NCBI RefSeq assembly: GCF_964204645.1 | Contig: NC_134028.1 | Span: 4,934,501 to 4,998,500, forward strand | DNA: 64,000 nucleotides | Direction of reading: 5' to 3' | Origin: Tubulanus polymorphus | Lineage: Eukaryota > Nemertea > Palaeonemertea > Tubulaniformes > Tubulanidae | In this document: positions 58,627 through 61,718 of the stretch, piece after piece | Layout: each line of letters opens with the position of its first letter | Numbering within the stretch: position 1 is the stretch's first letter | Translations under genes and position numbers: made by a program | The notes under the pieces: model-generated | Database searches by the model: none | What the model saw: only the letters and a program-made list of their open reading frames with translations | Told to the model about the DNA's origin: nothing

Positions 58627-58675
58627 CACGAAAGATGATCACGGTAGGTAAAACACAATATCCGTGTTGACGCGA

Positions 58676-59146
58676 TGAGGAGAGAATCCCACAATGATAA
58701 TAAAAAGTCCGAAAATGAAACTTCGAGATAGTAGTTTATTCAACGTTTCGACTATATCCTAATAGTCATCTTCAGGAATAATGAGATACTACAGAAATTA
58801 TGAGATATATATACAATCCAGGGACAAAGAGACTTATTCAAGTAATCAGAGATGATACAAACTAAAGGAAAATTAACGTAGAAACAGTTACACGCTAAAA
58901 TAGATTAAAGGGAAGCAAACTAAGGGGTGATTATAAACAACAATAGTGAGTATAAATATAAATGAAACTTAAAGTCAGTAGTAAAAAGAAAGACAAACTA
59001 GGGGGCACTTAAATTAAAACAAAGGTGAATACAAGTTAAGTCAGAGACGAAGTTGATGAGAGAACAAATAACAAATAATCAAAGGGGAAATCAAGTGTTG
59101 AGTTTAACCAGTTTACAGAGGAATTTTGATATAAGTTTATTATGGG
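58676..59146 (-). repeat. 3' terminal arm of the Penelope-like element
   Basis: 471 bp, an inverted copy of 61237-61707 with only a few differences (for example around 58920-58935). It contains the last 56 bases of the ORF including its stop codon. A hammerhead-like core lies at 58741-58776 in the sense orientation of the element. Confidence 0.9.
58741..58776 (-). ncRNA. Hammerhead-ribozyme-like core in the 3' arm
   Basis: Read on the minus strand: CCTGAAGA, then a six-base-pair stem (GACTAT with ATAGTC) capped by TAGGAT, then GAAAC. This matches the CUGANGA - stem II - GAAA core of hammerhead ribozymes, which are known from Penelope-like elements. A three-pair stem III (GTT...AAC) can be drawn; stem I is not clear, so activity is uncertain. 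Confidence 0.45.
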
Positions 59147-61241
59147 GTGAAAAACCATTGTTAAGGTTTACAACGTTGTTCGAATTTTCAATAATTAATG
59201 CAGATTCCAAAATATGTCTTCTAGTTTTATCGCTGCAAGGGTAAACTAATTCAGCATTAGCAAAATCAAAATTGTGTGAAGTCTGAAAAACATGACTAGC
59301 AACTCCGCTTTCAGGTTTAAAGTTTTTTACATCTAATTTATGCTCTTTTATGCGTTGATTAAGATTCCGACCTGTTTCTCCTATATATACTTTGTCGCAA
59401 ACTTTACAAGGTATTTTATAAATTCCACAGTTTAGGGATTCGGTTTTCGGTTTGTTGTTAATCAATATGTTACTAAGTTTATTATTGTATTTAAAGATGA
59501 GTTGTTTATTTAGTGACCGAAGAGAAACTTTAGAATTCTCGAGGAAAGGTACATACGGTACAATGATAGGCTGTTTATCGGTAGCCAACGTAGGAGTTCT
59601 AAGGTTGTTATTTCTAAAATGCGTAGTACGAGCTTTAAGTAGAGCTTTTTTCAATAGGAAATCGGGGTAGGCAAGTTTTTTGAGAGATTGGTTAATATGG
59701 TGAATTTCATCGGGTAGAAATGAGGGGTCGCAAATTCTCAAAGCGCGAAGAAATAATCCTTGAGCTAAACCGAGTTTAATATCCGGAGAAGTAAAAGAGA
59801 AGTAATGGAGGTAGGATTCAGCGTTGGTAGGTTTCCTATAAACCGCGAATTTCAAAAAGGAACCACAGTTAAAAATCAAAACATCCAGAAAAGGTATTTT
59901 ACTATTAGATTCCCATTCATACGTAAAAGCCAGAGACGGGTAAAGGGAGTTTAAATATATAAGAAAGTTATCAACATTGAAGTCAAAGGGAACCAAAGCC
60001 TGAACATCGTCAACATATCTGAGCCAGATTTTAGGGTGAATATCAGTGTAAAGAGGCAATATTTCAGACTCAACATGTTCTAGGAATAAATTAGCTACAA
60101 TAGGACTTAGAGGATTTCCCATAGCGATACCGAATGTCTGCTCGTAAAAACAATTGTTGAATTCAAAAAAGGAGTCCGTCGTACAAATAGAGATAAGGTC
60201 GATGATACAATCCGTAGGAATGTCGAAGTTAATGTTAAGTGTTGGTAATCTGCGTTTTAAGAAATCAAGAGTAGGTCCAAGAGGAACATTGGTAAAAAGG
60301 GAAGTAACATCAAATGATATAAATTTGTCGTTGCCAGGGATAATATTCTTAATACGTTCAAGTAAGTGTTGATTATGGCGAAGGTGCGACGGAGAGAACG
60401 AACCGAGCACCGGAGATAACTGTTTCGCGAGAAATTTAGATAACCGGTATGTAGGAGAATTACAATTGGAGACTATAGGGCGCAGTGGAACATTATCTTT
60501 ATGAATTTTAGGCAATCCATAGATATATGGTAAAGAGGGAAGACGTGAATGGAACTTATTCAGAGTTTCTTTAGCGGAGGGGAAACGTTTAATAATATCC
60601 GAAAGACTTCTGTTGAAATTAGCTTGCATACGAGGAAGAGGATTCGATTTAAGTTTCTTATAAACACCAGGATTATCCAAGAGAGATTGCATTTTAACAT
60701 TATAATTATCCAGATCTAAAATCACAATCTTGCCACCTTTATCAGCCTTAGCTATTTTAATAGTCTTTAACTTCCGTAGTTCTTGGAGGGCGAGCCGAAA
60801 TCGACGAGGTAGATATTCAAAAAGGTTCCTGTTGAGTTGATCGCATATAGCCTGTAGATTCATGAATATAAAATTATAGTCCAAACTGTTCGGAGATGAT
60901 TTGCGATATTCCAATTGGGTGACAAAGTCTAAAACATGTTTATCTTGATGAGGAAGAGAAAAATTCAAACCGTAGCCGAGAAGTTGACACTGAGTAGAAG
61001 ATAACGTGGTTGAAGACAAATTTACTATGTTTTCGGTGTTGCTAAATCTAGTCCAAGGGCTGGAATCAATGAGTTTATTCAGTTGGTTGGTAAGATCCAC
61101 GGACTTTCTGTGCTGATGATATTTTCCAGAGCCTTGAACAATAGTGGAGAGCGATTTCCAGAGGAATAGGTCCGGTACGTGTGACTTCAAATAATTTTGA
61201 GATTGACGGAATTTATAGAACTGATAGTTACAGTCTCCCAT
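59091..61241 (-). CDS. Penelope-type reverse transcriptase with GIY-YIG endonuclease
   Basis: One uninterrupted 716-residue frame. RT motifs in order: KADKGGKIVILD (about 165-176), PLRPIVSNCNSPTYRLSKFL (252-271), FISFDVTSLFTNVP with catalytic Asp at about 311, GIAMGNPLSPIVANLF (371-386), YVDD (409-412, the catalytic pair) and IPFLDVLIF. The C-terminal endonuclease starts GIYKIPCKVC at 606 and continues YIGETGRNLNQRIKEHK, giving GIY...YIG with a CxxC in between, as in animal Penelope elements, plus downstream His/Cys residues. The start codon lies at the inner edge of the 5' arm and the stop inside the 3' arm. All recognisable catalytic residues are present, so it could be functional. Target-primed reverse transcription is known for the class. 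Confidence 0.95.
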   Translation of the reverse strand: MGDCNYQFYKFRQSQNYLKSHVPDLFLWKSLSTIVQGSGKYHQHRKSVDLTNQLNKLIDSSPWTRFSNTENIVNLSSTTLSSTQCQLLGYGLNFSLPHQDKHVLDFVTQLEYRKSSPNSLDYNFIFMNLQAICDQLNRNLFEYLPRRFRLALQELRKLKTIKIAKADKGGKIVILDLDNYNVKMQSLLDNPGVYKKLKSNPLPRMQANFNRSLSDIIKRFPSAKETLNKFHSRLPSLPYIYGLPKIHKDNVPLRPIVSNCNSPTYRLSKFLAKQLSPVLGSFSPSHLRHNQHLLERIKNIIPGNDKFISFDVTSLFTNVPLGPTLDFLKRRLPTLNINFDIPTDCIIDLISICTTDSFFEFNNCFYEQTFGIAMGNPLSPIVANLFLEHVESEILPLYTDIHPKIWLRYVDDVQALVPFDFNVDNFLIYLNSLYPSLAFTYEWESNSKIPFLDVLIFNCGSFLKFAVYRKPTNAESYLHYFSFTSPDIKLGLAQGLFLRALRICDPSFLPDEIHHINQSLKKLAYPDFLLKKALLKARTTHFRNNNLRTPTLATDKQPIIVPYVPFLENSKVSLRSLNKQLIFKYNNKLSNILINNKPKTESLNCGIYKIPCKVCDKVYIGETGRNLNQRIKEHKLDVKNFKPESGVASHVFQTSHNFDFANAELVYPCSDKTRRHILESALIIENSNNVVNLNNGFSPHNKLISKFLCKLVKLNT

Positions 61242-61707
61242 AATAAACTTATATCAAAATTCCTCTGTAAACTGGTTAAACTCAACACTTGATTTCCCCT
61301 TTGATTATTTGTTATTTGTTCTCTCATCAACTTCGTCTCTGACTTAACTTGTATTCACCTTTGTTTTAATTTAAGTGCCCCCTAGTTTGTCTTTCTTTTT
61401 ACTACTGACTTTAAGTTTCATTTATATTTATACTCACTATTGTTGTTTATAATTACCCTTTGGTTTGCTTCCCTTTAATCTATTTTAGCGTGTAACTGTT
61501 TCTACGTTAATTTTCCTTTAGTTTGTATCATCTCTGATTACTTGAATAAGTCTCTTTGTCCCTGGATTGTATATATATCTCATAATTTCTGTAGTATCTC
61601 ATTATTCCTGAAGATGACTATTAGGATATAGTCGAAACGTTGAATAAACTACTATCTCGAAGTTTCATTTTCGGACTTTTTATTATCATTGTGGGATTCT
61701 CTCCTCA
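61237..61707 (+). repeat. 5' terminal arm of the Penelope-like element
   Basis: Inverted counterpart of 58676-59146 and of equal length. It carries the ORF start codon at its inner end and the hammerhead-like core at 61607-61642, here antisense relative to the ORF. Confidence 0.9.
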
Positions 61708-61718
61708 CGAAAGATGAT

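Follow-up and report, generated by a model that had tools for sequence, protein, structure and literature searches.

We consider it likely that dual target-primed reverse transcription best explains the head-to-head Penelope-like element (PLE) insertion at positions 58627–61718 of the window, together with the set of related copies in the same genome. The window is the whole stretch of 64,000 nucleotides of Tubulanus polymorphus DNA that was analysed (contig NC_134028.1, positions 4,934,501 to 4,998,500). We infer that both strands were cut with a stagger, that two cDNAs were primed, that two RNAs served as templates (or one RNA did so twice) and that a joining step followed. In our model the element protein would cut both target strands with a stagger of 11–15 nt, and each freed target 3′ end would prime a separate cDNA on the element sense RNA. 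Site 1 (R2857, past the tail) would be the start of one cDNA and site 2 (about R2821, short of the tail) that of the other; R denotes the family unit of 2,857 bp, which begins just past the tail and was taken from the direct-tandem copy L051. Both cDNAs would extend toward the RNA 5′ end, and their ends would be joined by microhomology, filler or blunt joining, giving two head-to-head arms with a single tail. In the window the tail-side cDNA would have reached 2.6 kb, halted inside the ORF, and the other 0.47 kb, their fusion making an accidental ATG. What the copies display directly is their anatomy, a one-tail rule, variable junctions, target duplications and inner ends clustered at the predicted transcription start.

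The window insertion, in which the sense strand of the element is the minus strand, is composed as follows.

58627–58639, no strand: left copy of the target duplication, 13 bp, CACGAAAGATGAT (sequence read)
58640–58675, minus: 36-nt PLE tail (R2822–2857), present at this end only; it is also found at ends of the 29 fully read head-to-head insertions
58640–61236, sense on minus: tail-bearing cDNA segment R261–2857, 5′-truncated within the ORF
58676–59146, minus: left inverted arm, comprising the pLTR 3′ region and the last ORF codons (R2351–2821)
58745–58775, minus: hammerhead-like core halves CTGAAGA...GAAA (R2722–2752) of the left arm
58805–58813, minus: TATA element of the left arm (R2684–2692), 31 bp upstream of the predicted +1 at 58782, pointing outward
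59091–61241, minus: open frame of 716 codons with RT (RVT_1) and GIY-YIG domains, its apparent ATG made by the junction
61236–61237, no strand: head-to-head junction R261|R2351, blunt, a single occurrence in the genome
61237–61705, plus: tail-less cDNA segment, which is the right inverted arm, R2351 to R2819–2821
61570–61578, plus: TATA element of the right arm, 31 bp upstream of the predicted +1 at 61601, pointing outward
61608–61638, plus: hammerhead-like core halves CTGAAGA...GAAA of the right arm
61706–61718, no strand: right copy of the target duplication, 13 bp (sequence read)

The structure that the first-pass annotation described for this insertion is partly confirmed, and most of the interpretation placed on it is wrong. 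The two inverted arms of 471 bp that it described were located at 58676–59146 and 61237–61707 and are 99% complementary, and its 13-bp target duplication was found at 58627–58639 and 61706–61718, the final two bases of the right arm overlapping the latter. The arms differ at three bases, which are clustered (R2568, R2573 and R2576). They had been taken as full element ends; the 471-bp arms are present, but the left end carries 36 extra bases (58640–58675). Nor is the copy symmetric, as had been proposed, since the tail-bearing segment measures 2,597 bp (R261–2857) against 471 bp for the tail-less segment (R2351–2821). Exact microhomology is absent from the junction, where TATGGG derives from the inverted arm alone. 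An assembly artefact, which the annotation had raised as a way in which its reading might fail, was rejected in view of the three arm differences, the flanking duplication and the same form at dozens of other loci. The window hairpin is a by-product of integration, and we see no sign of a function for it.

Two Pfam domains lie in the window frame, namely RVT_1 (37.2 bits against a cutoff of 29.6), with the YVDD motif present, and a C-terminal GIY-YIG (25.7 bits against a cutoff of 22.6). A phmmer search of the element protein against the PDB returned no relatives. In kind the element is unremarkable, an endonuclease-positive PLE; the earlier assignment to a PLE with RT and GIY-YIG domains stands. 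An uninterrupted frame of 716 residues had also been reported and is indeed open from 61241 to 59091 on the minus strand, but the ORF is not intact. The family ORF, read in tandem copy L051, starts at R4 and has 800 codons, of which the window frame lacks the first 86. The tandem copy has AAG GAA GAC TGT (K-E at the first two positions) in place of the window's ATG GGA GAC TGT, and its frame is open upstream. Being antisense of the 3′ region, the ATGGG of the window lies within the inverted arm. The sense segment begins at R261, and the apparent start codon is therefore a by-product of the junction. The start and stop codons do fall where the annotation had placed them with respect to the arms, the former as this accident and the latter only because the arm happens to extend into the ORF end. 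The TATA/initiator elements of both arms point outward, so that no pLTR promoter drives the window frame; for this reason, and with 86 N-terminal codons missing, a copy that had been put forward as intact and possibly active is probably a dead end.

The window copy is one among hundreds of young insertions of this element. Across the genome (267.8 Mb) a 25-nt pattern for the pLTR end matched 918 times and a tail pattern 430 times, both with at most three mismatches, which is near one tail for every two pLTR ends. The copies that we read are mostly 93–100% identical to R over the arms, and the longer ones 97–100%. The complete 5′ region (R1–255) occurs only about 25 times in the genome; thus 5′ truncation is the rule. 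Among 41 neighbouring pairs of exact pLTR ends (ends within 8 kb of each other among the first 100 exact pLTR ends listed, on contigs C1 and C2) 34 are head-to-head, six direct and one tail-to-tail, the last with 5.4 kb between its ends. Inverted arms are therefore the common form here, and they have been described in other animals (PMC3846280), so that they are not the departure from direct arms that had been supposed. Direct-armed copies, which the annotation had named as evidence that would tell against it, do exist: direct tandems of the 2,857-bp unit, belonging to the same family at 98–99% identity, coexist with the inverted-arm copies, and head-to-head is still the commonest arrangement of all. 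There are also copies that lack an inverted arm, and some of these have a duplication of 11–14 bp (C2:16595804, C5:14536254 and the direct tandem at C5:13024000).

Three loci have individual features. In the C12:8925300 region (L052) about 2.3 units stand in an unbroken direct array beside an inverted segment. At C7:7373419 (L017) the left flank, ATGGGGAATCCCCTCTCTCCTATT, is similar to the RT motif MGNPLSPI, and this copy may sit inside an older PLE. Several strand switches are found within one insertion at C2:13166314–13172370 (loci L036 and L006), where an R2003|R2526 junction is used twice, as if copying had moved back and forth.

Twenty-nine head-to-head insertions, 12 longer and 17 short, were read end to end. 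Every one has a target duplication of 11–15 bp, and every one has exactly one end with a tail of about 36 nt and one tail-less end, the latter at R2817–2826. In the 12 longer insertions the duplications are 11–14 bp (that at C5:16852367 was read by eye, being too close to the locus edge for our script), the tail end is at R2857 or a few bases off and the second end is at R2817–2825. In the 17 short insertions, which were picked from the list of pLTR ends irrespective of tail, the duplications are 12–15 bp, one with a single mismatch, and there is one tail end each. The longer set was found partly by tail-containing queries, which favours at least one tail, not exactly one. The sample is biased to copies close to the window element. 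This rule bears on self-priming, in which the end of one cDNA, or of an antisense-RNA copy, folds back and copies itself to leave a palindrome. Such a process should put a tail on both arms, and for this and the further reasons given below we regard it as unlikely.

The pLTR has a TATA element, TATATATAT, at R2684, and 31 bp downstream R2715 is the A of a TCATT initiator. This spacing is that expected for a TATA/initiator core promoter, and the two elements predict an RNA 5′ end with +1 at R2715. The inner arm ends can be set against this position. In the 17 short insertions 23 of the 34 inner ends fall at R2710–2723, most of them at R2713–2718, while those of the long insertions are scattered; the short copies were chosen by spacing, and a cluster at 176–214 bp (11 of 34 pairs) was already present in the unselected list. 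If both arms ran off at the same RNA 5′ end, two reverse transcription events would be required. A stop at an RNA structure is a less likely cause of the R2715 ends, since a reverse transcriptase travelling from the 3′ end of the RNA would run into the predicted stem before R2715. The antisense template invoked in self-priming would not be expected to end both arms at the sense transcription start.

Hammerhead-like halves, CTGAAGA/GAAA, are present in the pLTR and begin 7 nt past the predicted transcription start. An Rfam search of the element for a hammerhead ribozyme gave nothing at E ≤ 1, the fold predicted for it is not that of the ribozyme, and the folded 146-nt arm region is no more stable than shuffled sequences (z −0.51). 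The halves at R2722–2752 may represent a decayed ribozyme.

The clustered ends are also difficult for twin priming on one multi-unit RNA, in which the two target ends would prime on successive pLTRs of a tandem transcript. Tandem copies exist, and such a scheme would account for the same variants usually appearing in both arms of an insertion. In the short copies, however, the two arms each extend from the adjoining pLTR as far as the predicted RNA 5′ end, which is impossible for an RNA copied once. We therefore give this explanation little credence in general, though it could apply to some long insertions, the window copy included.

Each head-to-head insertion that we read has its own junction. 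Microhomology of at least 3 nt is present at eight of the 15 filler-free junctions in the longer set, compared with 6% expected; random pairs of positions have a mean microhomology of 0.73. The remaining longer junctions contain fillers of 2–194 nt. As sequences, the microhomology and filler joints resemble end joining of two cDNAs. The filler in the C5:16852367 region (L012, positions 355–548) is 194 bp of unrecognised sequence between head-to-head arms, and AT-rich fillers, 67 bp long in L086 and 83 bp in L095, lie between arms that both end at R2715. Near-symmetric junctions occur in three of 20 long head-to-head insertions (C5:8554740, C6:1706000 and C10:13349330, with ends no more than 15 nt apart) and, among the short copies, in L090 and L101. 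These speak for self-priming and could reflect fold-back in a minority of events, but the majority of the long junctions show an asymmetry of tens to hundreds of bases or more.

The two arms of an insertion mostly have their rare variants in common, and therefore tend to derive from the same source locus. Five are common to both arms of the C6 insertion, and R2445C and R2662A occur in both window arms and in no other sampled copy. This pattern can be set against the dual-priming model and also suits self-priming; two RNAs transcribed from a single locus could produce it, but so could one RNA used twice. Against self-priming, the arms differ in two insertions at sites that are polymorphic in the population of copies, C2:14642723 (at R2773) and C5:16852367 (at R2675). 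These differences point to two RNA templates, and are only suggestive because they comprise a single site in each of two insertions.

That a separate lineage propagates with fixed inverted arms and a transcript folded as a hairpin, as the first-pass annotation envisaged from the long arms and open frame of the window copy, is contradicted by the searched genome and hardly credible, given that the 268 Mb contain the window junction only once, none of the other head-to-head junctions read matches it, direct tandems of the same family coexist, the ORF is cut short and both pLTR promoters are directed away from it. Two further candidates were rejected: the spread of one palindromic master copy, as all 17 short junctions are different, and a MITE or TIR transposon, as arms and junctions vary and the tail is at one end. 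The short copies do look similar to TIR transposons and MITEs, being small inverted-repeat elements with target duplications; the differences are that arm lengths and junctions vary from copy to copy, only one end is tailed and the duplication varies between 11 and 15 bp. In LINE-1 twin priming, too, the second target strand primes on the element RNA, and the 5′ part is left inverted. What is inverted there comes from farther upstream in the same RNA, whereas here the 3′ end is repeated, always from a fixed site in the element.

Dual target-primed reverse transcription is thus supported by the one-tail ends, the predominance of head-to-head pairs and the clustering of inner ends, and also by junctions that vary with microhomology above random and by the two insertions with differing arms. 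Biochemical work lends further support. A 2024 study showed that in vitro a purified Anolis PLE protein cuts the two strands of the target and extends each of them, that synthesis starts at two neighbouring sites, one on either side of the tail, and that both start sites are used on both strands (PMC11167929); the text drawn on here makes no link to inverted arms. Since either site serves either strand in vitro, some additional ordering step is needed for the one-tail rule to hold strictly.

The T. polymorphus family is like the Penelope/Poseidon PLEs (Drosophila virilis Penelope and Anolis Poseidon PAc), which have a single ORF with RT then GIY-YIG, tandem pLTRs, a tail of 30–40 nt between two RT start sites and short target duplications (PMC11167929, PMC3846280). 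It differs in that their ORF ATG is upstream of the tail end and here lies 3 nt past it, and in that no hammerhead ribozyme passes Rfam here. It is also like Pen1–Pen6 of Adineta vaga, which have both inverted and direct pLTRs, head-to-head as the most frequent inverted form and TATA/Inr in the pLTR (PMC3846280). Further shared features are a tail, there of 31 bp and optionally present on one inverted pLTR, and short target duplications, there of 8–10 bp (PMC3846280). For the Adineta elements self-priming on an antisense template was suggested in 2013 and favoured by the authors (PMC3846280), whereas the young copies of this genome, which form a larger set, suggest two separate cDNAs. Our copies fit the behaviour of the Anolis protein in vitro and are hard to reconcile with self-priming.

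How PLEs acquire inverted arms and an optional tail was the prior question. The window copy is a defective insertion and itself of little weight; the value lies in the set of copies. With about 900 pLTR ends, many of them young, the genome offers a good natural data set for the dual-priming model, and the question of how inverted pLTRs arise can now be framed as a concrete two-primer model open to testing. We tentatively raise, as a serious possibility, a stronger form of the model, in which PLE integration would be an obligate two-RNA, two-primer reaction, one target end always using site 1 and the other site 2 of a sense RNA, and the many short head-to-head copies would have arisen by run-off at the RNA 5′ end. 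If this is true, PLEs would have a mode of retrotransposition distinct from LINE and R2 target-primed reverse transcription.
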